Assembly (NCBI GenBank): GCA_945870455.1
Contig: CAMBSL010000012.1
Location: 1-46,062 of the forward strand
Origin: Pirellula staleyi DSM 6068
Lineage (GTDB): Bacteria > Planctomycetota > Planctomycetia > Pirellulales > Pirellulaceae
Length of the DNA: 46,062 nucleotides
Direction of reading: 5' to 3'
Below are positions 27,867-44,689 of this stretch, piece by piece. The translations under genes and the position numbers were made by a program. A model generated the notes under the pieces. That model had not been told where the DNA came from. It ran no database searches and was given only the letters and a program-made list of their open reading frames with translations. Position 1 is the stretch's first letter; each line of letters starts with the position of its first letter.

Positions 27867-29189
27867 ATGAAAACAGTCAATCCAAATCCGCGATCGACAG
27901 AGCAATCCAAGCAGGAAGAATTTGAAGTCATCAAACGTCGCATACACAAGCGGCTCATCGACAAGCTTGACCTTTCGCGGGTCATTGATCTCAAAGGAGA
28001 ATCGTTTCGACGCGAAATTCGTGCGGTAGTTGAGCACCTTTGCGATAGCGAAAACACGTTCCTCAACCGCTCCGAACGCGACAAGATTGTGGATGAGGTC
28101 CTCGACGAAACGCTGGGGCTCGGGCCTTTGGAGTTTTTGCTCAAGGATCCGTCCATCAGTGATATCTTAATCAACGGCCCAAAAAACATCTTCGTTGAGC
28201 GAAGTGGTCAACTGGTGAAGACCAACGTTGAATTTCGCGACAATGCGCACTTGATGCAAATCATCGATCGAATTGTGTCCAAGGTTGGGCGGCGTGTGGA
28301 TGAAACCTGCCCAATGGTGGACGCTCGGTTGGAAGATGGTTCTCGGGTCAATGCGATCATTCCTCCGTTGGCTCTCGATGGAGCATGCGTTTCCATTCGA
28401 CGATTCGGTTCGAATCCGCTCAAGCTAGAAGGGCTCCTCAACTATAAGTCGTTCACGCCCGAAATGGTGATGCTACTTGAGGGCTGCATTAAAGCGAGGC
28501 TCAATATCGTCATCAGTGGTGGAACAGGCTCAGGCAAGACAACACTGCTCAACACTTTGAGCAGTTTCATTCAAAATGATCAGCGAATCGTTACGATCGA
28601 AGACGCAGCCGAGTTGCAGTTGCAGCAAGAGCACGTTGTAAGACTCGAAACACGGCCTTCGAACATTGAAGGAACGGGTGCCATTTCTGCGACGGATTTA
28701 GTTCGCAATGCGTTGCGAATGCGACCCGAACGGATCATCATCGGTGAGTGCCGGGGAGGTGAAACGCTTGACATGTTGCAAGCCATGAATACCGGGCACG
28801 ATGGTTCGATGACGACCGTCCACTCCAACTCGCCTCGCGATGCGATCGCTCGGCTTGAAACGCTGGTCATGATGGCGGGATACGACCTGCCTGTGAAAGC
28901 GATTCGGCAGCAGATTTCGGGTGCGGTCGATGTCATCATTCAGACCAATCGATTGCAGGGAGGACCTCGACGCGTCTTGAACATCACGGAAGTGCAAGGC
29001 ATGGAACAAGACACGGTCATTTTGCAGGACATTTATCGTTTTATTCAAGATGGGGTCGGAGACGACGGGAAAGCACACGGCTATTTCGAATCAACCGGAG
29101 TGCGACCTTCCTTTATGCCGAGGTTGGAGTCGGCCGGCATCAGGTTGCCAGCCAGCGCTTTCCGCCAGCGGATTATGATGCGAGCCTAA
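27867..29189 (+). CDS. cpaF: CpaF/TadA family secretion ATPase
   Basis: GPLEFLLKDPSISDILINGPKNIFVERSGQL, ISGGTGSGKTTLLNTLS, TIEDAAELQLQQEHVVRLETRP, RPERIIIGECRGGETLDMLQAMNTGHDGSMTTVHSNSPRDA. Confidence 0.96.
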   Translation: MKTVNPNPRSTEQSKQEEFEVIKRRIHKRLIDKLDLSRVIDLKGESFRREIRAVVEHLCDSENTFLNRSERDKIVDEVLDETLGLGPLEFLLKDPSISDILINGPKNIFVERSGQLVKTNVEFRDNAHLMQIIDRIVSKVGRRVDETCPMVDARLEDGSRVNAIIPPLALDGACVSIRRFGSNPLKLEGLLNYKSFTPEMVMLLEGCIKARLNIVISGGTGSGKTTLLNTLSSFIQNDQRIVTIEDAAELQLQQEHVVRLETRPSNIEGTGAISATDLVRNALRMRPERIIIGECRGGETLDMLQAMNTGHDGSMTTVHSNSPRDAIARLETLVMMAGYDLPVKAIRQQISGAVDVIIQTNRLQGGPRRVLNITEVQGMEQDTVILQDIYRFIQDGVGDDGKAHGYFESTGVRPSFMPRLESAGIRLPASAFRQRIMMRA

Positions 29190-29194
29190 CCAAC

Positions 29195-30160
29195 ATGATA
29201 GTACTAATCATCGCGGCCTCGGCGGGACTATGCGTTGCTGCCGTCGTAGGCTTAGTTGCAACCATGGTGCGAGGAGATGAAGCGTCGGTCGCCGAAGATC
29301 GTTTGTCCACTTTGACCGACATGGGACGCCGTGATTTGGTGGGCAAAGCGGACGATGTGCTTATGTTGCGCAATTCAACTGAAGGAACAACGAATTTCCT
29401 AGAGGACTGGATGGCCCGCAAGTTCAACATGAACGTTGCACTTGAACAGGCGGACATAAAGCTTCCTCTGAGCAAGTTTGGACTAATGTGCGTGGGGTTG
29501 GCGGGCACTGGCGCAGCCGCTGGTTTGTTCGCACCCATGCCATACCTGACCGCACCGTTGGCCGGGGTGTCGTTGTTTTTCTTGCCGTTCTTATGGGTTC
29601 TCATGAAACGGAAAGAAAGGATCAATAAATTCAACGCCCAATTGCCCGAGGCGCTTGAAATGCTGAGTCGATCCCTTCGCGCAGGACACTCGCTAGGCGC
29701 GGGTTTTGGATTGATTTCAGATGAGATGCAGGACCCTTTGGCCCGCGAGTTCGGGCGTTGCTTCGATGAGCAGAATTTAGGTGTTCCGCTGGAAAAATCG
29801 ATCGAAGCAATGACACTTCGCATCCCAAATCTTGACTTGCGTTTCTTTGCAACGGCGGTGAGTCTCCAGCGTCAAACGGGCGGTGACCTAGCGGAGATTT
29901 TGGATAAAATCGGCCGTCTTGTTCGTGCTCGCTATCGACTCGCTGGACAGATCCAAGCGCTCACGGGTGAAGGGCGATTGTCGGGTATCGTTCTCCTCGC
30001 CCTGCCGCCAGGACTGTTCATCATGATGCTCGTCTTGAACAAAGAGTATGTCATGAAACTCTTTACCGACCCGATGGGGCAATGGATGCTCGGTGGTGCC
30101 ATCGTAATGCAATTGCTTGGTGCACTCGTCATCAAAAAAATTATCGACATCAAGGTTTGA
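29195..30160 (+). CDS. tadB: TadB-like type II secretion F-domain protein
   Basis: Multi-TM; QLPEALEMLSRSLRAGHSLGAGFGLISDEMQDPLAREF...TGGDLAEILDKIGRLVRARYRL. Confidence 0.9.
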   Translation: MIVLIIAASAGLCVAAVVGLVATMVRGDEASVAEDRLSTLTDMGRRDLVGKADDVLMLRNSTEGTTNFLEDWMARKFNMNVALEQADIKLPLSKFGLMCVGLAGTGAAAGLFAPMPYLTAPLAGVSLFFLPFLWVLMKRKERINKFNAQLPEALEMLSRSLRAGHSLGAGFGLISDEMQDPLAREFGRCFDEQNLGVPLEKSIEAMTLRIPNLDLRFFATAVSLQRQTGGDLAEILDKIGRLVRARYRLAGQIQALTGEGRLSGIVLLALPPGLFIMMLVLNKEYVMKLFTDPMGQWMLGGAIVMQLLGALVIKKIIDIKV

Positions 30161-30215
30161 ACGCGAGTCGTACACCACTTGGCGTTTGCAAGCTACAAAG
30201 GTAGGAATAAAAATC

Positions 30216-31193
30216 ATGTTGATTCTTGCTGCTATTAGTACCAGCGCGCTAAGTGTGCTTATGATTGTGAGCATTTTTTTGGCTGCTGGCTCGCTCGCTT
30301 GGTTTGCAATGGACTTTTTCGGCAAAGATGCGCAAGGTGCGGCTGAAGACCGATTGGACATGCTCAACCTCTCCATGCGAAAGGAAGCTGGTGTTAAACG
30401 GACGAACGTTGAAAAGCTAACGAAGGCGTTGGAGCAAGCTTCGCCAGCCATTTCCAAACATATGGTGGCAAAGACCGAAGCAGAGCGCAATAAGTTGAAA
30501 ATGCGATTGACCGAAGCAGGATTTCGATTTGATTCAGCGACGGCGGTCTTTCTCACTATCAAGGTGTTCGCGGGGTTGGGGGGGCTCGTACTGGGTGGCG
30601 GAATTACCGCGCTTACGATGGGATTTGGGAACGCAGTCCTCTTGCGGGCCGTCATCGGAGGCGGGATCGCCTTCTTCCTGCCGGAGTTGATCCTCGATTT
30701 GTTGAGGAGTAGGAGAAAGAAGCAAATTACCCTCGGACTTCCGGATGCCCTGGACCTATTGGTCGTGAGCGTCGAATCAGGACTCGGACTTGATCTAGGT
30801 ATTCGGAAGGTGGCAGAGGAAATGCGCTCGTCCTACCGAATACTTTCCGATGAACTTCAGCTCTGTACTTTGCAGTTGCAAATGGGCCGTATTCGTGCCA
30901 GCGTACTTCAAGAACTCGGCAGCCGTACGGGTGTTGATGACTTGCGATCACTGGCCTCGCTATTGATTCAAGCCGAGAAATTCGGTTCAGGAGTTGCTCA
31001 AGCTTTAAGAGTACAAAGCGAGTCGATGCGGATCAAACGACATCAGATTGCCGAAGAGAAGGCAGCCAAGACTGCTGTCAAGCTCATTTTCCCTCTCGTC
31101 ATCTTCATTTTCCCAGGAGTCTTCGTGGTTCTGGTCGGGCCAGCCGCCATTCAGATGGCCCGGGAAATGTTTCCAGCCATGCAGGGAAAGTAG
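30216..31193 (+). CDS. tadC: TadC-like type II secretion F-domain protein
   Basis: LGLPDALDLLVVSVESGLGLDLGIRKVAEEM...GSGVAQALRVQSESMRIKRHQIAEEKAAKTAVKLIFPLVIFIFPGVFVVLVGPA. In-frame ATG at 30216 inside the tracked ORF. Confidence 0.9.
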   Translation: MLILAAISTSALSVLMIVSIFLAAGSLAWFAMDFFGKDAQGAAEDRLDMLNLSMRKEAGVKRTNVEKLTKALEQASPAISKHMVAKTEAERNKLKMRLTEAGFRFDSATAVFLTIKVFAGLGGLVLGGGITALTMGFGNAVLLRAVIGGGIAFFLPELILDLLRSRRKKQITLGLPDALDLLVVSVESGLGLDLGIRKVAEEMRSSYRILSDELQLCTLQLQMGRIRASVLQELGSRTGVDDLRSLASLLIQAEKFGSGVAQALRVQSESMRIKRHQIAEEKAAKTAVKLIFPLVIFIFPGVFVVLVGPAAIQMAREMFPAMQGK

Positions 31194-31326: not shown

Positions 31327-31366
31327 GCCTCAGACGACATCATCCTGCCTCAAACGACATCATCCA
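31327..31366. repeat. 20-bp direct tandem duplication spanning a stop codon
   Basis: gcctcagacgacatcatcct / gcctcaaacgacatcatcca (18/20 identical). Confidence 0.85.
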
Positions 31367-31676
31367 ATTTGTCCTTCAACTGTTGATGTAATGCTTGGAT
31401 GGCTTTTTTCAGTTGGTGCCATTGAATAAACGCCATGTGGGTATCGATCTGTTCACAGTCATTGCGATCGAAGCCTCGTTCGCTAATGCGAATTGCATCG
31501 TCCAGTGCAAACATTCCAACATCGGCAATTTCTTGTTCGCATACGGATTCGCAGACCTCTGCCTTTCCGTCAACTTGGAGCATAACGAGATTAACGGCCC
31601 AAACAGCGGCACATTCGGAATCATAGCAATCGACAATTCCACGAACCGAACCACTTTGAACATAGAACTTGGCCAT
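31350..31676 (-). CDS. Hypothetical protein (108 aa)
   Basis: MAKFYVQSGSVRGIVDCYDSECAAVWAVNLVMLQ...; no family recognised. Confidence 0.6.
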   Translation of the reverse strand: MAKFYVQSGSVRGIVDCYDSECAAVWAVNLVMLQVDGKAEVCESVCEQEIADVGMFALDDAIRISERGFDRNDCEQIDTHMAFIQWHQLKKAIQALHQQLKDKLDDVV

Positions 31677-32000: not shown

Positions 32001-35000
32001 ATGAGTATGACCCAGCCCAAGCAAAAGATCGCCATTCCTGATTCGCTCGTCAGGCAGTTGCACGACTTTCGCGTCCAAGTCTGGACGATCAAGATGCTAG
32101 AAGCATTTGGAATCGCATGCCTTTCCGTTTTTTTTGGTTTTCTGGCCGTGTTTGCTTTGGATCGTTTGTACGATTCGCCAGCATGGATCCGTGCCGCTGT
32201 TCTATTGCTTGCGACTGCTGGAGTCGCTTCGATTCCCGTATGGTTTCAAAGATGGGTGATTCGAATCCGGTCCGCCGAATCGGTTGCAAAACTGCTTGGT
32301 AAGCGAATGCCGGCAGTCGGTGACTCATTGCTTGGCGCGATCGAGCTTTCCCATAGCGATTCGGAACAATCTCGCTCGCCCGCCTTGTGCCAAGCTGCAT
32401 TGCAACAAGTAGCGAATGATTCCGCCAAAAGGAATCTATTGGACGCAACACCGAGTTCTCAGCATCGTACATACGGTTCGCTTGCCGCTATGGGACTGGC
32501 GGTCGCAATGGGACTGTGGATCATGTACCCGGCAGCGGCCTCCAACGCTTGGGCGAGATTCGCTGCTCCACTCTCCAATGTGCAGCGTTTTACATTCGCC
32601 GCTCTCGATTCCGTTCCATCGAAGGTTATCGTGCCACACGGTGAAACATTCCCAATCTCAGTTAAGCTCTCTGAGGATTCCGAGTGGTCGCCTAGCAAAG
32701 CGTCCGCCACAATCGGTAAGCAGACTCAGTTAGAGAGCCAATTGATCAATCGCTCGTACGAATTTGAATTACCACCACAAATCAACTCGGGCACACTCTT
32801 GCTCTCCATCGGAGATGCATCGCCGAGTATTCATATCGAGCCAAAGCTTCGGCCGGAACTGGAAAGCATTGTTGCTAATATCAAGCTTCCCCATTATTTG
32901 AATCGTCCAGAGGCCATCAGCAAAGATGTTCGAGGCGGCGGTCTATCGGTCGTGAGAGGCTCCGAAATCGGTTTTGACGCGACCGCCACGAGTGCCCTGG
33001 CTTCCGCGTCCATCGGACAGACTGCTCTAACGGTCACAGAACGGACGTTTCGCCCCGACGCAGGGCTGATCGAAGAATCCAACAAATTCGAATTGCAGTG
33101 GACGGACACCGATGGACTTTCCGCCAAGTCCCCATTCTCAATCAATGTTTCGGTACGCGACGACGAAGCCCCATCGGTGTTCTGTGATGGACTTCCTCGA
33201 TCCCGCGTATTGTTGGATTCAGAGCAGATCCAGTTCACGGTTCGCTCCCTCGATGATTTTGGTGTGAAGCACGTTGGGATGGAATGGAAGACCGCAGAAG
33301 GATTTCAGTCGAGCAAACCTCTGACTGGAGAATCGATGCTGGCGGCTGGCCACGCCAATGCGGAGTCACTCGATGCAATGGCTACATTCCAAGCGACATC
33401 TCTAAAAATCCCTCCTCAACCACTCGAAGTTCGGATGTTCGTCGAAGACTACTTCCCCGATCGCGGTCGAGTCTATTCGTCCCCCCATTTGCTCTATGTT
33501 CTTAATCCGGATGAACACGCGCATTGGATCCTTGACCAAATGAGCAAGTGGCAACGCGAGTCGCTGGAAGTTCGGGACCGCGAACTGCAACTGCTGGCCA
33601 CCAACAAGAAAATCCGCGATCTGCCCGAGGAGGAGCTCGACCAAGACGACACACGTCGCAAAATCGAGCAACAAGCTTCCGCCGAGCAAGCCAACGGACG
33701 CCGCCTGAACAACTTGACGGGTCGCGGAGAAGATTTGCTGCGCCAAGCGGCGAGGAACTCAGAGATCGGTGTCGGGCATCTTGAGAAGTGGGCTGAGGTT
33801 CAGCAAATTCTAAAAGACATCGCAGCCAATCGCATGCCCAATGTGGCGGATTTGCTCAAGCAAGCCAAAGAAGAAAAGAGACTTGCCAAAGCGAGCTCAA
33901 GTAATAGCGAAAAATCAGGTCCCATAGCTGGCGTAAACAAAGACAATCGAAGCAACCCGTCAGCTGCCGATCCAGAAGCCACCCCAACGCCTCCGGGCCC
34001 GGTGGTACCCATGATTGCGGATCGAGAATCCTCGCAACAACCGCCGATCGAGTCCGATGATCCTCAACAAAAGTCGAAAAACGGCCCCCCACCCGCGCTG
34101 CGTTTGCCAACGACCACCGTGATGGGTAAACCTCAACCAAAAAAACCGGGCGAAGAGGAAAACGAGACGGACAGTAAAATCGAACAGGCTGTTCGCAAAC
34201 AAGAAGAGCTGTTGGCAGAGTTCGACAAAATCGCCGACGAGCTCAACAAACTGATGGCGAATCTCGAAGGTAGCACTTTGGTGAAGCGACTCAAAGCAGC
34301 ATCACGCGAGCAAATCCAGATTGCGGATGCAACCTCAACGGAAATCGATAATGCATTTGGATCAAGGCTTCAGCGGCTCAAGCAAGATCAGCAAAAACGG
34401 ATCGAGCAACTCAAGGGTCGCGAAGAAAACGCCCTTAACACCGTCAGTGTGATCATCGATGATTTGGAAGCTTTTCATCAACGTCGTCCTCTAGTGAAGT
34501 TTCAAAGTGTTCTCGATGAAATGAAAGCAGAAGATGTCCTCGGGGGAATTCGCGTTTTGTCAGACCGCATCCTTGAATCGCAGGGGCTCGCCATCGCCGA
34601 GGCTGAATACTGGTCTGATACCATGGACCGCTGGGCTGAAGACCTCGTCGATCCAGCCTGCAAAGGTGAGTGCAAAGGGAGCAAATCCAAAAGTTCACTC
34701 CCCCCGTCGATCATCCTCGAAGTCATGCAGATTCTTGAAGCGGAAATCAATCTTCGCGACCGAACTCGCGTTGCAGAGCAATCCAAGGCGGTTTCCGAGA
34801 AAGCGAAGTATCTTGAATCTGCCTCCGAACTCGCCGCAAATCAAATGGATCTGGAGGAGCGAATCGCCATCGTGCGGACCAAAATATTGGAGCTACCGGA
34901 TGCGCAAGCTGAGTTTGCAAAAGAGATTGAGTTGATGCAGCAAGTGGACTTGGTCATGATTGATGCGGCAAAAATATTGGAACGACCCGAGACGGGCAAG

Positions 35001-35285
35001 CTGGCCATTGCAGCCGAGACAGAAGCGATCGAACTACTGCTGAAAAGCAAACGTATCAATCCAAAGAGCGGTGGAGGTGGCGGTGCCAGTCCCGGTGGCG
35101 GCGGTGGCGGGGATACGCAGGATGCAGCTATTGCCATGTTGGGACCTGGGATCAACGAGAAAGAAGCTCGCGAGGACCATGGCGTCCAACAGGCGACGGG
35201 CTCGTCGGGAACCAGTTTTCCAGAAGAATACCGACAGGGTCTGGACGAATACTTCCAAAGACTCGAACGCAAATCACTGCCTTAA
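32001..35285 (+). CDS. Large membrane-anchored coiled-coil protein, DUF4175-like (planctomycete type)
   Basis: Two N-terminal TMs, another near SLAAMGLAVAMGLWIMYPAAA, long coiled-coil/Glu-rich region, Gly-rich patch near C-terminus. ATG 32001 preferred over the 31917 ORF start. Confidence 0.7.
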   Translation: MSMTQPKQKIAIPDSLVRQLHDFRVQVWTIKMLEAFGIACLSVFFGFLAVFALDRLYDSPAWIRAAVLLLATAGVASIPVWFQRWVIRIRSAESVAKLLGKRMPAVGDSLLGAIELSHSDSEQSRSPALCQAALQQVANDSAKRNLLDATPSSQHRTYGSLAAMGLAVAMGLWIMYPAAASNAWARFAAPLSNVQRFTFAALDSVPSKVIVPHGETFPISVKLSEDSEWSPSKASATIGKQTQLESQLINRSYEFELPPQINSGTLLLSIGDASPSIHIEPKLRPELESIVANIKLPHYLNRPEAISKDVRGGGLSVVRGSEIGFDATATSALASASIGQTALTVTERTFRPDAGLIEESNKFELQWTDTDGLSAKSPFSINVSVRDDEAPSVFCDGLPRSRVLLDSEQIQFTVRSLDDFGVKHVGMEWKTAEGFQSSKPLTGESMLAAGHANAESLDAMATFQATSLKIPPQPLEVRMFVEDYFPDRGRVYSSPHLLYVLNPDEHAHWILDQMSKWQRESLEVRDRELQLLATNKKIRDLPEEELDQDDTRRKIEQQASAEQANGRRLNNLTGRGEDLLRQAARNSEIGVGHLEKWAEVQQILKDIAANRMPNVADLLKQAKEEKRLAKASSSNSEKSGPIAGVNKDNRSNPSAADPEATPTPPGPVVPMIADRESSQQPPIESDDPQQKSKNGPPPALRLPTTTVMGKPQPKKPGEEENETDSKIEQAVRKQEELLAEFDKIADELNKLMANLEGSTLVKRLKAASREQIQIADATSTEIDNAFGSRLQRLKQDQQKRIEQLKGREENALNTVSVIIDDLEAFHQRRPLVKFQSVLDEMKAEDVLGGIRVLSDRILESQGLAIAEAEYWSDTMDRWAEDLVDPACKGECKGSKSKSSLPPSIILEVMQILEAEINLRDRTRVAEQSKAVSEKAKYLESASELAANQMDLEERIAIVRTKILELPDAQAEFAKEIELMQQVDLVMIDAAKILERPETGKLAIAAETEAIELLLKSKRINPKSGGGGGASPGGGGGGDTQDAAIAMLGPGINEKEAREDHGVQQATGSSGTSFPEEYRQGLDEYFQRLERKSLP

Positions 35286-35295
35286 GACTCTCAAA

Positions 35296-36225
35296 ATGCA
35301 TCCGTGTGTATTCAATCGATTGGCGATGGCCGCCCTCTTTTCATTTTGTTTCTTCGAGCCTAACGAAACTCATGCGCAGGGAGAGTTGTTGCTAGGCCAA
35401 GAAGTTCGAGTGCAAATCAATGGCGTGGAAGTCAATGCCGCAAACGGCCAGGTGTTAAAAGGTTTGCGGATGCAAGCGGCCGACAAAGTCGTTGTACCTG
35501 TGATGCCTCCGGACGCTGAGCTATCCAAGCGGCAGTTATTTATGTTGATGCGTGGGCTAATCCAAAACGAACTCTCCGTCGTGGATTCCGTCTGTCAACT
35601 CAATAATAAGCAACGGCAAGCCATTGTCGACCTAGCGGAGCAGGAATGGACTGTTAAGACCAGCGCTGCGGTTTTGAAATGCCTACAGCAGCATGTTTTC
35701 GGAACCACCGATCTCGACAGTTTGGCCGAACGAACCGTCAGGAGTTGGCTGGTGACATCTGTATCCACCGAATCCGTAGCCAACTACGACCAAGAATTAG
35801 CAGATCGTATGGAGTACAGGAAGCACGCTTTGATCAGCGTGATGCTCGACTCGTTGGTCGTAAAACTCAACTTAAGTTCGACCCAGATGGAACAAATTGA
35901 AGCGATCCTAGACGAAAAATGGAGAGACCGTTGGTTTCGTTCTCTCGAAGCGACCTTTAGCAATGTGTCTTTGTTCCCCGAAATTAAGCCCTCGTGGATT
36001 TCATCCATTCTCACAGATGCACAGCAAGCCGCCCTCGTCACACGCGAGTCACAACAGTTTTTTGGTTCGCACCAAGTCACACAAGATTCGCCAAGCTTGG
36101 CTCTCGACGCCCGATTCGTCATTGGATCGATCGCAAGCTCGAATGCAATAGCGTTGGCGATGGGAAGCAAAAAAGAAGACAAAGCCTCAAAGAGCGAGGA
36201 ACAAAATGATGCGACAAAGCGTTAG
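35296..36225 (+). CDS. Secreted hypothetical protein, paralogue A
   Basis: MHPCVFNRLAMAALFSFCFFEPNETHAQG signal; in-frame ATG 11 nt after the previous stop. Confidence 0.75.
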   Translation: MHPCVFNRLAMAALFSFCFFEPNETHAQGELLLGQEVRVQINGVEVNAANGQVLKGLRMQAADKVVVPVMPPDAELSKRQLFMLMRGLIQNELSVVDSVCQLNNKQRQAIVDLAEQEWTVKTSAAVLKCLQQHVFGTTDLDSLAERTVRSWLVTSVSTESVANYDQELADRMEYRKHALISVMLDSLVVKLNLSSTQMEQIEAILDEKWRDRWFRSLEATFSNVSLFPEIKPSWISSILTDAQQAALVTRESQQFFGSHQVTQDSPSLALDARFVIGSIASSNAIALAMGSKKEDKASKSEEQNDATKR

Positions 36226-37183
36226 AAGTTCTGGAGCGCAAACGAGAAGTCTGCTCTGTTTGTTCGGTTTCGTTCGTCCTGCGATCTTCTTAACCGCGAT
36301 CTTCGTAACGTTGGCAGCCTGTTCGTGTGCATTCGCTCAACAACAGGCAGTTCCACTGCCGGCTCAAGCTATACAGATTCAACAGCAACGCATGCTACAA
36401 AATCTAAAAGAGCGTGTGCAACCACGTGTTATTCTAGATGAGGATGTTGACGATGAGGATGCGGTTATTTGGGGACAGGGCGCTTTTCCGCAGATGGACC
36501 GCCAAACGATGCGGGAGTCCATGTTCGGTGCCTTGGGAGGATCCGAAGCAGCCTTCCAAAAACTCAAGCGAGAAAGCATCCAACGCGAATTGGACCGTAT
36601 CAACGTCATTTGCTCACTGACCAATGCCCAACAGGAAAAGTTAAACGAGGCCATCGAAATCGATATTCAACATGTCCATGCCAAAATCGAGACCGCTCTG
36701 AGCAAATTTGACTCGAAAATGACAGTGCAGCAATTTCAACAAATTCAACAAGAAATTCATATAGTCACCGGCACACTCAACGCCGGTTCACAGCAAGATG
36801 GAGAAATCTGGCGAAAAGTCCTTCGCTCTCAACTCACCGCAGAACAATCTGCAAGAATCGAGGAGGACAAGCAGAAAGTGGAAGCGAACCAATCGCGAAC
36901 GCAGCGGCTCAAAATCCTTTTACGCTTGCAACGAAAACTGGGACTGACGGGAAAGCAAAGGAATGCGTTGAGTGAATGGATCAAGGAGAAAAAGCAGACC
37001 CAATTTGATTTTGCTACCATTTGGAAATTGTTGGCTTCCGTCGACGACAACCAGATTCCATTCACAGCCACCCAGCGCAAGTTGCTCGAACAACCTCTCG
37101 GTCCGGCCGATATCGCAAATATGCCGACGGGCGAGTTCCCCCAATTTAATGTGGTTCCTATGATTCAGATTCGCCAACGATGA
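36206..37183 (+). CDS. Secreted hypothetical protein, paralogue B
   Basis: Signal (PAIFLTAIFVTLAACSCAFAQQQ); ORF overlaps upstream gene by 20 nt. Confidence 0.75.
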   Translation: MMRQSVRSSGAQTRSLLCLFGFVRPAIFLTAIFVTLAACSCAFAQQQAVPLPAQAIQIQQQRMLQNLKERVQPRVILDEDVDDEDAVIWGQGAFPQMDRQTMRESMFGALGGSEAAFQKLKRESIQRELDRINVICSLTNAQQEKLNEAIEIDIQHVHAKIETALSKFDSKMTVQQFQQIQQEIHIVTGTLNAGSQQDGEIWRKVLRSQLTAEQSARIEEDKQKVEANQSRTQRLKILLRLQRKLGLTGKQRNALSEWIKEKKQTQFDFATIWKLLASVDDNQIPFTATQRKLLEQPLGPADIANMPTGEFPQFNVVPMIQIRQR

Positions 37184-38304
37184 TTAAGCTTGAGATGAAC
37201 TACCAAAGTGCCTTTTTTCGTTCGCAGACCTGTAGGGCTCCCAATGGGCTCCTGCTCTTGGTTGGATTCCTCTGCGTGGTTACGCAAGTTACAGGCGCTC
37301 GGGCGCAGGCGAAAATTGGCCGAGACGGCAATGCAGTCCAGGGTCAAACCGTTCCGCGAGACGTTCGAGAGATTTACGATCGTGGATTGCTTTGGCTTGA
37401 AAATACGCAAGATGAGAGCGGTGGATGGAGCAAGACGGGAGGGATGTCCGGAGGAGGTGTTTCCGGATTGGCTCTCATGGCGTTCCTTGCGTCCGGCGAG
37501 GACCCAAATTTCGGCAAATACAGCATACCGGTTCGCAAATCGATTCAGTCCATCATTCGAGGGCAGAATCCAAACACCGGTTATCTAGGCGATAGCATGT
37601 ACCAACATGGGTTCGCGACTCTTGCGCTGGCGGAGGCGTATGGCGCGATTGATGAGCGAAATTTTTGGCCGGCCGATGCGGATAGCAAACGCACTCGATC
37701 GATAGGTCAGGCATTGGAACTGGCGATTCGAACATCGGTAACTAGCCAGGACAAGAACACCTTTGGCGGCTGGCGATATTCGCCCGATGCGAGCGACTCG
37801 GATACATCGGTTGCCGGCGCCATTCTGATGTCGCTTTTGGCGGCTCGCAACGCTGGGATCGAAGTTCCGGACAAGAATATTGACCGAGCCATCAAGTACT
37901 TTACAAGCATGACGTCCAGCAGTGGACAAGTCGCCTATGCAGGTGGCATGGGTGGTTTTGATAATTCACCGGCGAGAGTCTCCATAGCCACCTTGGTCTA
38001 CGCCATTGCCGGGAGAAAAGACCTCAAGGAATTCAAGGCTACCTCTTCGTTTCTAAAGTCGTCGGATTCGAACGAGGTGAACGATCATTATGGCGAGTAC
38101 ACGGCTTACTACAAAGCCCAGGCGCTCTTCCAGACGGATTTGCCTACTTGGGAGAAATGGAACAAGAATCTCATTCTAGAACTCAAGAAGAAGCAGAAAT
38201 CGGACGGCCATTTTGACGGCAATTTTGGACCTGCAGTCGCAACGTCGATGAACCTCTTGGCTCTCGCTCTTAATTTTCGCTTTTTACCCATTTACGAACG
38301 ATAG
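37180..38304 (+). CDS. Prenyltransferase/squalene-oxidase repeat (alpha/alpha toroid) protein, secreted
   Basis: GLLWLENTQDESGGWSKTGGMSGGGVSGLALMAFLASGEDP..., GLGDSMYQHGFATLALAEAYG-like repeats, TFGGWRYSPDASDSDTSVAGAILMSLLAARNAG. Confidence 0.85.
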   Translation: MIKLEMNYQSAFFRSQTCRAPNGLLLLVGFLCVVTQVTGARAQAKIGRDGNAVQGQTVPRDVREIYDRGLLWLENTQDESGGWSKTGGMSGGGVSGLALMAFLASGEDPNFGKYSIPVRKSIQSIIRGQNPNTGYLGDSMYQHGFATLALAEAYGAIDERNFWPADADSKRTRSIGQALELAIRTSVTSQDKNTFGGWRYSPDASDSDTSVAGAILMSLLAARNAGIEVPDKNIDRAIKYFTSMTSSSGQVAYAGGMGGFDNSPARVSIATLVYAIAGRKDLKEFKATSSFLKSSDSNEVNDHYGEYTAYYKAQALFQTDLPTWEKWNKNLILELKKKQKSDGHFDGNFGPAVATSMNLLALALNFRFLPIYER

Positions 38305-38312
38305 AACATCGA

Positions 38313-41231
38313 TTGGCCAATATGCATTTCACAAAAACAATCGTGTTGATCCTTTGTCATTTTGCTGTACTGCAATGGGCGAACATTCAAGCTGCCGACC
38401 CCAAACCTGCAATTCCACCGAAGATTGACAAGTCGGTAGGAACGCTCCATTTGATTGGTGGAGATGTCTACAGAGGAGAGATCGCTAGCGGCTCCAATCA
38501 AGAAGCCAACGGTGCTCTGATCTGGCGGTGCCCTGCATTCGCTTCGGACTTGATCGTCCCATGGAACGCCATCGACCGATTGACACAGCCCATCTTAGAA
38601 GCTCCGCAACCAGAACCTCAGTCTACGGACTCCAATGCGGAAATGTTTGTGTTCGAACTGCAATCCGGCGAAACCGTATCCGGACGATTTGCAAACATGA
38701 TGGATCCGTGGATTGAAGTGGATAGTCCGTTGGCGGGGAAACATAAACTGCCTATTGAATCCATTCGAAGCATCTTGCGTATAAGGCCATCGATGGTTGC
38801 CCAGGGCGGCTCGCTTGCCATCTCGGACTGGAAACAAGTTGCGCCACCCATCAAGGCAGGGGGCCGAAGCAAGTGGTTCGAACGGACGGGTTCCTACGAT
38901 ACGGAAACGGCAGGGACAGCCATCACGCAGCAAGTCTCGGTTCCAGACTTGGTTGCCATCGATATCGAAGTCGCTTGGGAGCAAGCCAGCCCGAATTGGA
39001 TGTTAACGCTCGGGGAACCGCGTCGCATGGAGTTGCATTTCCGAAAGCTTGAAACGCGAAACATGATCTCGATCACGATTCTTGTCGATGATGAACTTTC
39101 AGCAGATATTGAAACGGTTCAGATTCCAAGCGATGGATTGAGCTCGATATCTCTGAGGATGCTGTGCGATTCCAATCGAGGTCGCTTTGTGTTATTGCAG
39201 AACGGAATTCCTATCGCACAATTGCGTTTGACGAAGTCGATGCGTTTGACCGGTCGGCATAGCCTGACATTCACCAATATCGCGCAAGGCAAGGTCTCTC
39301 TCCGCGAACTGAGAGTCTATCCATCGGTTTTCACTGCCCCATTCATGAAACCCAAGGGAACGCCTAACGCAAATCCAGATGAGGCTCGCGTGACCGAAAC
39401 ACTATTGCGCAACGGAGAAACCTTTGTGGGCCGGCCAAGCCAATTCGACGCCGCCTCGCGATCCTTCGGATTTGCGGATGGAAACACCAACCTTGGCCGC
39501 GTTTCGATTGAGCAAGTCGAGAGAATCGAGTTTCCGCCTAGCGATATAACAACAACATCCAACGAGAGCAAACCCTTTTTTGTGGCGGAACTCAAGTCGG
39601 GAGCCACGTACTTCGGGCAAGCTGCCAAAATGCAAGGGGACAAAATCCTCTTGACCATTGATTCCATAAAGACCACGGTGCAAATTCCTGTTCAAGACCT
39701 GCAATCGATTGGGCTGAGCGTTTCGCGAGCAAGCAATCCCAAAACCATGGAACCAATCGCCTTGGCGCAAATGATGAAGTTTGTGTCACCGTGGACAACA
39801 TCGACGGGAAGGATCGATCGAGTCGCGGCAATTGCGGCTAAGGGAAATGGTGCAGACAATCGTCCAAAACTATTCTGGAAACCATTCGCAACGAACTCCG
39901 TTGCACTGGCTCGAGATGCGACAGGCACAATCGAGCCCCTTTTGATTGGACCGGCAAAGTCCGCTATCCGTTTGACGGATGCCCGAAACGTGAACCCAAA
40001 GACCGGGCAAAAGCCGACCGTGCCAGATTATGGCCGACCTTTGAAAGCCGATGAGCCATCGCTGTTCCTAAAGAGCGGCGACTGTTTCCCCGCCGTGGTG
40101 GACATCCTTGATGAAACACAAATGAAATTCAAGTCTGAGATTTTCGAGGCGGGCCAAATTGAGAATGAGTACGTGCGAGGCATCCGAGTACTTGCCGATA
40201 CTGGCACCGACATCAATGAAAAAGGAGTCCGAAAAAGACTGCTCACTTTACCTCGCTCGCAGCGAAGCAATCCTCCTTCTCATTTGATTGTTTCCAGAGA
40301 AGGAGATGCCATTCGCGGCCATTTGAAAGGGCTGACACCGGATATCGCGACCATAGAGGTCCGCGGATCGGAGTGTGCAATCATGATGAAGACGGTAGCT
40401 GAAATCATTTGGTTGCTCGACGCGCCCGAAATCGTTCCGCTCGGAAAGGAGCTCGAGAAAAAATCGACTCCCAAAATCGAACCGAAGTCAAACGGTTCCG
40501 ATTCGAATCGCGAGCTTGAGTGTCAAGCGTTGTTCAGTTCGGGCACTCGCATCAGCGTTGTACCTGACCGCATTGAGAACGGCATCCTATACGGCCAACA
40601 TCCTCAATTAGGTAATTGCCAAATCGATCTTTCTAAGATTGCTCGATTGGTGCTTGGGGATGCGATTATGGAGGAAGCGGAAAGGAACCGATTTGGAAAA
40701 TGGCGACTTGAAAACGCCATCGATCCCAAGTTCGTCAATGATTTGGATTCGCCCGAAGAAGGTGGGGCAGCCAACAATCCGAATTCCGTGTTTGCGAAAA
40801 TGATAGGTGAGGCGGCACCCGAATTTGAACTTAAGAAGATGGACGGGGCCTTGTTGCGATTATCCGACCTACGAGGGAAAATTGTCGTACTTGATTTCTG
40901 GGCAACATGGTGCGGCCCATGCATTGCATCGTTGCCAAAGTTGACTGAGATTTCGCAAGAGTACAAAGGCGCAGGCGTTGAGTTGGTCACGATCAATATC
41001 GAACAGAAACCGGCCGAGATTCAAGCCATGTTGAGCAGGCTGGAGATCAATCCAACGGTCGTCTTGGACTCGGACGGTGCGATCGCGAGGGCTTATCGAG
41101 CACAGGCGATTCCGCAAACAGTCGTAATTGATCGAATGGGAAATGTTTCTCAAGTCATCGTTGGTGCCGGAGATTCATCGGAGAAAAAAGTCCGCGAAAC
41201 ACTCGACATGATGCTTAACACCAAGCTCTAA
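38313..41231 (+). CDS. Secreted multi-repeat protein with C-terminal TlpA-like thioredoxin domain
   Basis: Signal (TKTIVLILCHFAVLQWANIQA); seven approximate L-SGE-x-G repeats; C-terminal APEFELKKMDGALLRLSDLRGKIVVLDFWATWCGPCIASLPKL...IPQTVVIDRMG. Alternative ATG 38322. Confidence 0.85.
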   Translation: MANMHFTKTIVLILCHFAVLQWANIQAADPKPAIPPKIDKSVGTLHLIGGDVYRGEIASGSNQEANGALIWRCPAFASDLIVPWNAIDRLTQPILEAPQPEPQSTDSNAEMFVFELQSGETVSGRFANMMDPWIEVDSPLAGKHKLPIESIRSILRIRPSMVAQGGSLAISDWKQVAPPIKAGGRSKWFERTGSYDTETAGTAITQQVSVPDLVAIDIEVAWEQASPNWMLTLGEPRRMELHFRKLETRNMISITILVDDELSADIETVQIPSDGLSSISLRMLCDSNRGRFVLLQNGIPIAQLRLTKSMRLTGRHSLTFTNIAQGKVSLRELRVYPSVFTAPFMKPKGTPNANPDEARVTETLLRNGETFVGRPSQFDAASRSFGFADGNTNLGRVSIEQVERIEFPPSDITTTSNESKPFFVAELKSGATYFGQAAKMQGDKILLTIDSIKTTVQIPVQDLQSIGLSVSRASNPKTMEPIALAQMMKFVSPWTTSTGRIDRVAAIAAKGNGADNRPKLFWKPFATNSVALARDATGTIEPLLIGPAKSAIRLTDARNVNPKTGQKPTVPDYGRPLKADEPSLFLKSGDCFPAVVDILDETQMKFKSEIFEAGQIENEYVRGIRVLADTGTDINEKGVRKRLLTLPRSQRSNPPSHLIVSREGDAIRGHLKGLTPDIATIEVRGSECAIMMKTVAEIIWLLDAPEIVPLGKELEKKSTPKIEPKSNGSDSNRELECQALFSSGTRISVVPDRIENGILYGQHPQLGNCQIDLSKIARLVLGDAIMEEAERNRFGKWRLENAIDPKFVNDLDSPEEGGAANNPNSVFAKMIGEAAPEFELKKMDGALLRLSDLRGKIVVLDFWATWCGPCIASLPKLTEISQEYKGAGVELVTINIEQKPAEIQAMLSRLEINPTVVLDSDGAIARAYRAQAIPQTVVIDRMGNVSQVIVGAGDSSEKKVRETLDMMLNTKL

Positions 41232-41666: not shown

Positions 41667-44627
41667 CTATTTTAGACCTTCCAAATACGCAAGCAGATCG
41701 GCCGCTTGCTGTTGGGTTAGATTGGATAGTAGCTCGACCGGCATGAGCGATTGAGTCGACCGTTTTTCCATTTCAATACTGTCGATAGCAATTGTGATTG
41801 GTTCGCCTGTACCAGGTTGCAACGTAAGTTCCTCATCCGTACGTTTGAGTACTCGGCCGATGGTCGTAGAGCCATCGCTCGTTAAGACGATGATGGCTTG
41901 ATACGCTTCCTCGATGGACTCATCCGGTTTGATGATCTGATCTAGAAGTTTTTCTCGGGGATACTTCTTACCGATTTTGCTTAGATCCGGACCGGTCGAT
42001 TTCGCCTGCCCGTCCACCCGATGGCATTGATTGCACTGACCTACCCCTCTTTCAAACAGCTTCTTTCCTGAATCGCTTTTGCCATCTACGGCGAGGAGTG
42101 TGGCAGATGACCAACCGCTTCCTAGTCGCTCAATCCGCTGATCCGGTCTCGCCAATGGCTCGATAGCATCACGAATGACATCCTCGCTTTCAAGTGCTCG
42201 AAGGATGATTGAATCGCGGAACGCTTTAGGGACGCTGCCACTTCGTATCGCGTGAACGAGAAACATACCGCTGGTCGAATCTGCTAAGAGTCGCTCACAC
42301 GCCTCCATTCGTTCCTTGTCGTTCACCTGCCCAACAGGAGCGGTAACCCGATCGAGCGCACCTCGAATCGACTCCTCCTTGGGAAGTTGGAGGATCCAAT
42401 CGTGGATCAACTGCACTCCTTTTTCGTCAACAGAGTGGGCACCGATATGAGGCATTCGTCCCGTACCAGACTTCGCCATGCGATAAAGGATCAATGACTG
42501 GGCCGGTGAACCGGGTGCGATTAACTTAGCATCGCGAAATCCATAGTCACCCTTCATCGGTGGCATATCAACCGACTTGGTGTCGGCTAGCGATTTGGCA
42601 AAGGGCATGTCAAGGTTCGACGATCCCACCGCTCCAAACATATGGCAGTGCGCGCAATTGACGTGGAGATACGATCGCGCTCGGACGTTGAGTGAGGCTG
42701 CCGCATTTTCCGAAGATGCCATGCAAGTGAAACGTTCGTCGCTGGCAGGTTGCTTTTCCTTGCCGAGTGCGGCGAATCCTTGTCGAATCAGGGTTCGCCA
42801 GCTATCCGACTTTTCGTTTGGCTTTCGCAGTTGAGCTTCCAACATGCCAAGCGATTCACCCGCCCATGTTGTGTGGCAAGTTCTGCATTGGCTTCGAGAT
42901 GGGAAATTCCATGTCATTTTTTGGTTAGGTTGTTGCGGATCATCTGAGTCAAGGGCAACGGATCTTTGCCCCCCATCGGCTGGAACGAGAGTGGCATCGG
43001 ATTGGTCATCATTCCATCGGTAGCTGTAGTAGCGCCAATCCGCGACTGCGTTCAAGTGAGCAATCTGAGTTTCTAACGCGATACGGCTTGATTCATCCCC
43101 AGGGCGTACTTGAATCGTATAGGTCTTGGCTAGTACGGTACCCGGCGGATATTTTACTTTGGTTTTGAACCAGTCAATGGTTGGTTGTTCGTCTTGGTAA
43201 AAGGTCGCTTGCCCATCGCCTGGGATCGCCAACAAATATTCGGCTTGGGCGCCATCGGCCCACATCGAGGTATTGAGTTCATATGTCGCGACGCCTGGCG
43301 CTGGCTTACGAGTCTTGATATCAGACCACAGTCCGGAGCGCGAGAGTGCGAAAGGGAATTGCTTCTTCTGCTGGCTGGGCTCTTGCTTTGCTTCCGGGTT
43401 CTCCTTGAAACGGTACAACCCTGCCTTTTGTTGATCGTTCGAATAGTCGCAAACCAACAGATCTCCATCGTGATCGATCGCAAAGCAAATCGGCTTGACG
43501 TTGCTGGCTGCGATTTCGATCGGCAACGCCACCTTTTCCTTGTCGAATCCAACGGACCAGAATCGTTTCGTAATCCAATCGCCAAAAATGTATTTGCCTT
43601 GCAATCCGGTACGTTGCGCCCCGCGATAGACGATACCGCCTGTGACCGAGGCGGCGTCTGCATGGCTAAGTACAACATCTGCAGGGAGGATGGGCGTTGG
43701 CCCGACTTTGCCATGAATGTTGACGTCACCTGGCCCCTCTTTGATGGACCATCCGTAGTTGCCGCCCGATCGAACGCGATAGACCATTTCGTACATTTCC
43801 CATCCAACATCGCCCACCCATAGATCGCCCGTGGCCCTGTCAAAGCTCATCCGCCACGGATTGCGAAATCCGAATGCATAGACCTCATGTTTGACACCTG
43901 AAAGATGAACGAATGGATTGTCTTTTGGAATCGAATATGCTCTGTCTGTGTCGGGATGATCCACATCGATTCGCAAGATCGAAGCGTAGAGATCCGTGAT
44001 GTCTTGACCCGTGCTCAGCCTATCTGGAGGCGAAGGAACTTCGAGGTCACCTATCGAAATGTAGAGATAACCATCGGGTCCGAAAAGGAGTGTGCAGCCA
44101 TTGTGACCACCGCCTCCGCAGGTCAATATGGTTACTTCGCTTGTGAGATCGATAGTGGGTTCCGGTTCCTCCGTAACTCGAAAGCGTGCGATGTGAGTTC
44201 CGTTGGGGTCCTTGGGGCTAGTTGGATTGACGATATAGCAAACGTACGCAAATCGGTTTTCCAAGAAGTTTGGATGAAACACGATGCTGTAGACGTCGAT
44301 CCGCTTTTTGGCAGGTAAGATCGATTGCAAATCGCACATTAGACTCGGCTGAAGATCGGGATGGGATTCCGAAAATGAGACCACTTTGCCCTTCTGCTCA
44401 ACGACGACCAGCCGATCCGTTCCTGGCAGGGGGACCATAGCAACTGGCCCGGTGAATTCTTGCTTTGGATATGCCCGCTCCAGGACAAAGGGCAAGGGAG
44501 GGTCGGGGGTTCCAACAAACATGGAATCGTTCCATGGAACCCTTGTTGCGGACTCTTGTGCGAAACTATCGCATGTCGTGGCCACCAAGCAGGCAGCAAC
44601 CCAAAAAAGCAAAGGCGGGTTGTTCAT
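41667..44627 (-). CDS. PQQ-dependent sugar dehydrogenase-like beta-propeller fused to three CXXCH cytochrome c motifs
   Basis: FVLERAYPKQEFTGPVAMVPLPGTDRLVVVEQKGKV..., GNYGWSIKEGPG, CRTCH, CAHCH, CNQCH; signal at MNNPPLLFWVAACLVATTCDSFAQ. ORF track start 44660. Confidence 0.88.
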   Translation of the reverse strand: MNNPPLLFWVAACLVATTCDSFAQESATRVPWNDSMFVGTPDPPLPFVLERAYPKQEFTGPVAMVPLPGTDRLVVVEQKGKVVSFSESHPDLQPSLMCDLQSILPAKKRIDVYSIVFHPNFLENRFAYVCYIVNPTSPKDPNGTHIARFRVTEEPEPTIDLTSEVTILTCGGGGHNGCTLLFGPDGYLYISIGDLEVPSPPDRLSTGQDITDLYASILRIDVDHPDTDRAYSIPKDNPFVHLSGVKHEVYAFGFRNPWRMSFDRATGDLWVGDVGWEMYEMVYRVRSGGNYGWSIKEGPGDVNIHGKVGPTPILPADVVLSHADAASVTGGIVYRGAQRTGLQGKYIFGDWITKRFWSVGFDKEKVALPIEIAASNVKPICFAIDHDGDLLVCDYSNDQQKAGLYRFKENPEAKQEPSQQKKQFPFALSRSGLWSDIKTRKPAPGVATYELNTSMWADGAQAEYLLAIPGDGQATFYQDEQPTIDWFKTKVKYPPGTVLAKTYTIQVRPGDESSRIALETQIAHLNAVADWRYYSYRWNDDQSDATLVPADGGQRSVALDSDDPQQPNQKMTWNFPSRSQCRTCHTTWAGESLGMLEAQLRKPNEKSDSWRTLIRQGFAALGKEKQPASDERFTCMASSENAAASLNVRARSYLHVNCAHCHMFGAVGSSNLDMPFAKSLADTKSVDMPPMKGDYGFRDAKLIAPGSPAQSLILYRMAKSGTGRMPHIGAHSVDEKGVQLIHDWILQLPKEESIRGALDRVTAPVGQVNDKERMEACERLLADSTSGMFLVHAIRSGSVPKAFRDSIILRALESEDVIRDAIEPLARPDQRIERLGSGWSSATLLAVDGKSDSGKKLFERGVGQCNQCHRVDGQAKSTGPDLSKIGKKYPREKLLDQIIKPDESIEEAYQAIIVLTSDGSTTIGRVLKRTDEELTLQPGTGEPITIAIDSIEMEKRSTQSLMPVELLSNLTQQQAADLLAYLEGLK

Positions 44628-44689
44628 AGAATTGGCGGTCGATCGGCGTTGAATGTGCATGGCGGTAGGATCCTACTTCTCAAATTTGC

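Follow-up and report, generated by a model that had tools for sequence, protein, structure and literature searches.

A planctomycete Bat/MoxR-type operon with a candidate Sec/Cys redox protein and a covarying thioredoxin

Related systems

Operons of the Bat (Bacteroides aerotolerance) type, which combine MoxR, DUF58 and VWA genes and whose products are membrane-bound and directed to the envelope, are widespread, and their biochemical role is an open question. The name refers to aerotolerance, and in Leptospira biflexa no oxidative-stress phenotype followed from the deletion of bat genes (PMC3557215). The planctomycete operon described here also has membrane-bound, envelope-directed products, and in relatives it is led by a MoxR AAA_3 ATPase, a DUF58 protein and a VWA protein with a BatA N-terminal domain. 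What sets it apart from the Bat/MoxR operons is a group of additional genes, which encode a protein with a putative Sec/Cys centre, a pair of helical proteins that are secreted, a protein of the toroid type and one with a thioredoxin domain, and also the location of the Bat genes of this genome at other loci. The most fitting description is a Bat/MoxR operon variant that carries a predicted Sec/Cys family, new within the sources searched.

Three further families invite comparison. DUF4175 (PF13779), which accompanies MoxR/DUF58 genes in other bacteria, combines membrane helices with a coiled coil, as does the first protein of the operon, although the latter has no match to the DUF4175 profile at E≤1. 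The TlpA/ResA/DsbE thiol-disulfide oxidoreductases, whose TlpA/DsbE-like domains often have several clients, are resembled by the last protein of the operon, which is secreted and has a C-terminal domain with a WCxxC motif. In contrast to them, this domain is fused to a repeat protein of ~800 residues, is linked to the redox motif of the first protein and scores under the NCBIfam equivalog cut-offs. Finally, as in bacterial selenoprotein families with Cys homologues (PMC13188914), relatives of the first protein have UGA for a conserved Cys, a patchy exchange of Sec and Cys, a local stem-loop with a G opening its apical loop, and Sec machinery in the genome, whereas the Sec would lie in a loop within the coiled coil of a membrane protein and not in a thioredoxin-like fold.

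The five-gene operon

The window, that is, the whole stretch of 46,062 nucleotides that was analysed (Pirellula staleyi DSM 6068, contig CAMBSL010000012.1), carries the following genes and motifs:

g1, 32001..35285, + strand: inner-membrane protein of 1094 residues with two TM helices, a cytosolic loop, a third TM helix, Ig-like beta domains and a long coiled coil; Cys form of the putative Sec/Cys family
g1 redox motif C887-KGE-C891, 34659..34673, + strand: TGC AAA GGT GAG TGC
g2, 35296..36225, + strand: secreted helical protein, 309 residues, fast-evolving
g3, 36206..37183, + strand: secreted all-helical protein, 325 residues, fast-evolving
g4, 37180..38304, + strand: secreted alpha/alpha-toroid-like protein, 374 residues
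g5, 38313..41231, + strand: secreted protein of 972 residues with repeats and a C-terminal TlpA/ResA-like thioredoxin domain
g5 WCGPC active site, 40908..40922, + strand: both Cys encoded by TGC

The preliminary description had proposed a five-gene layout at 32001–41231 with tight junctions, which is borne out by the reading frames: 10 nt separate g1 from g2, g2 and g3 overlap by 20 nt, g3 and g4 by 4 nt, and g4 and g5 are 8 nt apart. The mechanically called frames of g1 and g2 begin further upstream; position 32001 matches the start of the g1 orthologues. That all five products are exported or membrane-bound agrees with the predicted signals: g1 has two to three TM helices, and g3, g4 and g5 each have a hydrophobic segment at the N-terminus, that of g2 being weaker. 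A single transcription unit spanning 32001–41231 is plausible, since a convergent gene follows g5 and 800 nt separate g1 from the Tad-type secretion gene upstream; promoter and terminator scans of the window stayed at chance level and were uninformative.

Upstream of the operon, positions 27867–31193 hold Tad/T2SS-type genes, which encode a T2SSE ATPase and two T2SSF membrane proteins. Between these and g1 lies a probable small gene on the minus strand (31350–31676, 108 residues, MAKFYVQSGSVRGIVDCYD...) with no Pfam match. The convergent gene after g5 (41667–44660, minus strand) encodes GSDH (glucose/sorbosone dehydrogenase) and cytochrome c domains.

The label "DUF4175-like" initially given to g1 was rejected, as a search of 15 orthologues gave no PF13779 match even at E≤1, whereas DUF4175 matches that are weak and under the family cut-off occur for other proteins of the window genome. 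The same 15 orthologues gave no Pfam, NCBIfam or PDB match, and a fold search returned generic Ig-like domains only. Hydropathy places TM helices near residues 27–56, 62–80 and 161–179 and none later, so the rest of the protein is most likely periplasmic. In the AlphaFold model of the orthologue from genome G116 (mean pLDDT 71), Ig-like strands (residues 209–502) are followed by long helices (504–1009), and residues 876–892, where the redox site lies, form a disordered loop linking two helices. The CxxxC of the window protein (C887/C891) falls within a predicted exposed, probably periplasmic loop.

For g2 and g3, described as secreted paralogues, a distant signal at the family level stands, the g2 family HMM scoring ~30 bits on the g3 frame, whereas pairwise comparison detects no likeness (BLASTP E 32). 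A comparison of g3 with Spy/CpxP/CnrX-like periplasmic helical proteins gave no significant fold match (best CnrX, probability 0.18, E above 1). The assignment of g4 to the alpha/alpha-toroids retains a weak likeness: the squalene cyclase model TIGR01787 matches at E 7.7e-5, far under its cut-off, and one orthologue matches DUF6288 above the cut-off.

Conservation of the gene order

When g4 was used as a query against 118 genomes of the order, the matches split cleanly into orthologues in 23 genomes, whose 50–64% identity across families marks g4 as the slowest-evolving secreted partner, and paralogues of ~35% identity everywhere. Around the orthologues the tightly spaced order BatA–c1–g1–g2–g3–g4–g5 is found, and with longer loci most of the complete ones read MoxR(AAA_3)–DUF58–BatA–c1–g1–g2–g3–g4–g5, with BatA, DUF58 and MoxR identified by Pfam profiles. 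The same order occurs in dozens of genomes from several families, far beyond chance. The gene order is thus conserved well outside this genome, and the suggestion of an under-described, conserved multi-protein envelope system holds, as the order recurs across Planctomycetota.

A relation to Bat-like MoxR/DUF58/VWA genes, not adjacent in the window, had also been suggested and is now evident: MoxR AAA_3, DUF58 and BatA (PF07584) head the operon that they share with these genes in relatives (e.g., loci L157 and L033) and lie elsewhere in the window genome, where contig C228 ends with MoxR–DUF58 and the first part of BatA, C373 carries the remainder of BatA and C7 carries c1. In the genus to which this genome belongs, the Bat genes and c1 occupy other loci and g1–g5 are still together; in a complete genome of this genus (G123), c1 and g1 are ~3.6 Mb apart by coordinate, and g1 is present in all 24 same-genus genomes examined besides the window's. 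Judged from these arrangements, the ancestral operon is fragmented in the window's genus, with g1–g5 kept intact, and that the five genes stayed together while the ancestral operon broke is good evidence for a functional unit.

Predicted selenocysteine forms and cysteine forms of g1

In g1 orthologues from several families, an in-frame TGA takes the place of the second Cys of the DPACKGEC motif of the window, as in DPAGGGT-U-PGGKSRGSLPPS. Among 397 genomes of the order, g1 is present in 111 and has internal stops in 12, all of them TGA; ten lie at the second Cys and one (G284) at the first, and g1 of G328 has two, at or next to both Cys positions. Two more UGA genes were found outside the order (G661, with GGAU, and G425, with GPGU), and a scan of named genomes gave UGA in 23 of 80 g1 loci. 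With six loci common to the named and order sets, these amount to 31 distinct UGA loci, among which neither TAA nor TAG occurs at the Cys codon positions. At all 31, the UGA stands where homologues have Cys and is framed by conserved flanks, as in bacterial selenoproteins; the window copy is the Cys form. It is almost certain that g1 is a Sec/Cys family. A C-terminal Cys of the Sec forms in alignment A1 was an artefact of a terminal TGA read as U, and some of the UGA calls in family f8 (G238, G182 and G251) proved to be terminal stops and were left out.

Table S9 of PMC4807772 (2016) aside, the selenoprotein family is undescribed in NCBIfam (June 2026), in the catalogue of the 2026 review PMC13188914 as covered by a term search, in deep-Sep (PMC12013277) and in the open-access literature. 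With the same exception, g1 is a predicted Sec/Cys redox family missing from the catalogues searched, and would extend the current lists of selenoprotein families, which seem to lack it.

The main UGA class has a frozen stem-loop after the UGA, with one covarying pair (GGCAGUUUGCC) and the loop 22 nt downstream. In all 12 UGA genes of the order, the Gly-Ser-Leu-Pro downstream of the UGA is encoded by GGC-AGU-UUG-CC, which gives the hairpin GGCA-GUU-UGCC with GUU as its loop. Ser-Leu is written as AGU-UUG in 12 of 12 UGA genes versus 7 of 51 non-UGA genes (p 2e-8), the background in these genes being 10% AGU among Ser codons and 28% UUG among Leu codons. The 33 sequences with standard spacing reduce to 23 distinct elements, every one with a 5-bp stem whose fifth pair, C-G, G-C, U-G or U-A, is always paired by way of third codon positions. 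The same hairpin is located at 37 nt in G284 and at 34/19 nt in G328, and the element of G425 is less regular. A SECIS-like stem-loop with a G in the apical loop is found just past the UGA. The overall folding energy of the region downstream of the UGA, set against synonymous shuffles, did not separate Sec from Cys genes (p 0.37, with three rows misassigned).

The Sec machinery is present, as selB, as a strong tRNA-Sec match or as both, in each of the 14 UGA genomes tested, with selB only in G003 and tRNA-Sec only in G185 (the tRNA-Sec search covered the set except G661 and G425), and none of 25 genomes without selB has UGA in g1. The association is significant (Fisher ~1e-5) with G114, whose g1 was unrecovered, taken as non-UGA; its omission strengthens the result. 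Ten genomes have the machinery and no UGA in g1, as is expected under Sec/Cys exchange. Within one genus, G116 has the UGA and the machinery, and G104 has Cys and no selB. The Cys form of G104 (locus L047) retains a Sec-type hairpin (GGCAGCUUGCC) as well as an extra upstream Cys, and by these traces G104 is a recent Sec-to-Cys reversion.

In Sec forms of the GGTU type, the first Cys of the CxxxC is lost, and nearly all of them have a new Cys, usually in "-CP-", ~160 residues upstream, where a disordered linker ends. This distant Cys is present in 28 of the 31 Sec forms and in three non-Sec loci, the recent Sec-loser G104 being among these few. In the order set it occurs in 11 of 12 Sec forms versus 1 of 68 others, and in the named set in 22 of 23 versus 2 of 57 (p 1e-11 and 2e-16, respectively, for two overlapping samples with relatedness ignored). 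On the tree, Sec and the distant Cys undergo six changes each, and differing pairs change in the same direction or are neutral, never opposite. The combination would be the pattern expected of a selenenylsulfide pair.

The thioredoxin domain of g5 and its likely coupling to g1

The description of g5 as a repeat protein with thioredoxin proved apt: several LxLxxGxxxxGxxx units precede a C-terminal WCGPC domain (residues ~831–960) that is TlpA/ResA-like (PF00578, 1.5e-25). It is an AhpC-TSA/Redoxin domain with CxxC, an assignment that holds at the domain level and not as a ResA equivalog.

A live CxxC in g5 was found in 42 of 45 scorable loci with a Cys/Sec motif in g1, versus 3 of 28 without it, so that the two features agree at 67 of the 73 loci (42+25), with p 4e-13 when relatedness is left out of account. 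At two loci with a Cys-less g1 (L165 in G203 and L191 in G338), the thioredoxin domain is retained in a dead form, with WSAAS and WSAPS, respectively. The exceptions are G123, G142 and G397, with a Cys-less g1 and a live g5 CxxC, and G101, G206 and G214, with Cys in g1 and no g5 thioredoxin. On the tree, the 25 concordant losses of the g5 thioredoxin and the g1 motif include ~5 independent events; because these are so few, a tree-aware sign test falls short of 0.05 (p 0.06–0.12), with all losses concordant or neutral. A functional link between g5 and the g1 centre is likely.

Proposed mechanism and alternatives

The conservation of the operon, the exchange of Sec and Cys together with a recoding element and machinery, and the co-loss with the g5 active site are seen in the genomes themselves. 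Taken together, the family, the operon and the g1–g5 coupling have, with reasonable probability, their best explanation in the following model. Within a MoxR/Bat-type operon of planctomycetes, the genes g1–g5 would form the half concerned with the envelope, in which the coiled-coil domain of g1, predicted to be periplasmic, bears a two-residue redox centre, Cys-Cys in the window genome and, if Sec is made as predicted, Sec and the distant Cys in many relatives. This thiol/selenol centre would swing outside the membrane, carried by a flexible loop, in or next to an assembly of MoxR, DUF58, BatA and c1. The g5 thioredoxin would be its dedicated partner and, most likely as a reductant, would reset the (seleno)disulfide of g1, and the redox state of g1 would probably tune a membrane assembly of MoxR, DUF58, BatA, c1 and g1 that acts on envelope proteins and has g2–g4 as secreted partners. 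That g5 is the reductant and that the centre regulates the Bat/MoxR assembly is a tentative proposal, somewhat on the unlikely side. Direct control of the MoxR/Bat assembly by a selenium-based switch that lies in the g1 domain thought probably periplasmic, and that the g5 thioredoxin reads and resets, is rather doubtful; if true, a selenoprotein would regulate an AAA+ envelope chaperone system.

Among the alternatives, it is very improbable that the UGA codons reflect errors of sequencing, frameshifts or pseudogenes, or that they are true stops that divide g1 into two polypeptides. Most UGA g1 genes do come from metagenome assemblies, and mechanical ORF calling splits them into two ORFs with a 24-nt gap (annotations at this locus are probably wrong in UGA genomes for this reason), but the codon holds the same position in 31 genomes, is only ever TGA, has strong conservation on both sides and a frozen synonymous hairpin, and is accompanied by the machinery in all UGA genomes tested. 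The usual presence of Sec at catalytic positions and the location of the TxU/CxxxC centre in an exposed loop would fit a stand-alone Sec/Cys enzyme, thiol peroxidase-like or an oxidase, served by g5 as one of several interchangeable thioredoxins. This is unlikely, as the Sec site, in the structural model, lies without an enzyme fold in a disordered loop amid coiled-coil helices, and the loss of the centre together with the g5 active site speaks for a dedicated partner.

The joint loss of the g1 motif and the g5 CxxC also argues against a broad role of g5 in donating or isomerising the disulfides of many envelope proteins, in which g1 would simply be one substrate or would have a structural disulfide. 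Such a role would suit a large, multi-domain, secreted protein and, from general knowledge, the multi-client habit of its domain type, yet it is improbable, and Sec in g1, by comparison with known selenoproteins, would argue for redox catalysis or cycling over a structural disulfide. For the g1 centre itself, a redox switch or sensor is preferred to a catalytic oxidoreductase, given that some lineages lack the centre and retain the complex and that the site lies outside a redox-enzyme fold. Since whole lineages live without the centre, it is not essential to the complex. A Sec/Cys centre with a covarying thioredoxin would give one branch of the Bat/MoxR operons a concrete, testable redox chemistry.

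Variant and paralogous loci

Several loci depart from the common arrangement. In L050 and L162 (G004), g3-like genes are tandemly expanded into several ORFs of 250–1300 residues between g1 and g4. In family f8 (L049, L053, L197, L198 and L199), g4 stands ahead of the g2/g3 genes, the g5 thioredoxin is absent, and a Gly-rich stretch is mostly found in place of the g1 redox motif. A second, paralogous Bat-type operon is present at L056, L057 and L058, where BatA and c1 are followed by a different membrane protein of ~1200 residues, a small protein, a g4 paralogue and a last gene, which in L058 encodes an NPCBM-domain protein and in L056 and L057 a homologue of it. This paralogous operon occurs with or without the g1 operon, and G019 has both.
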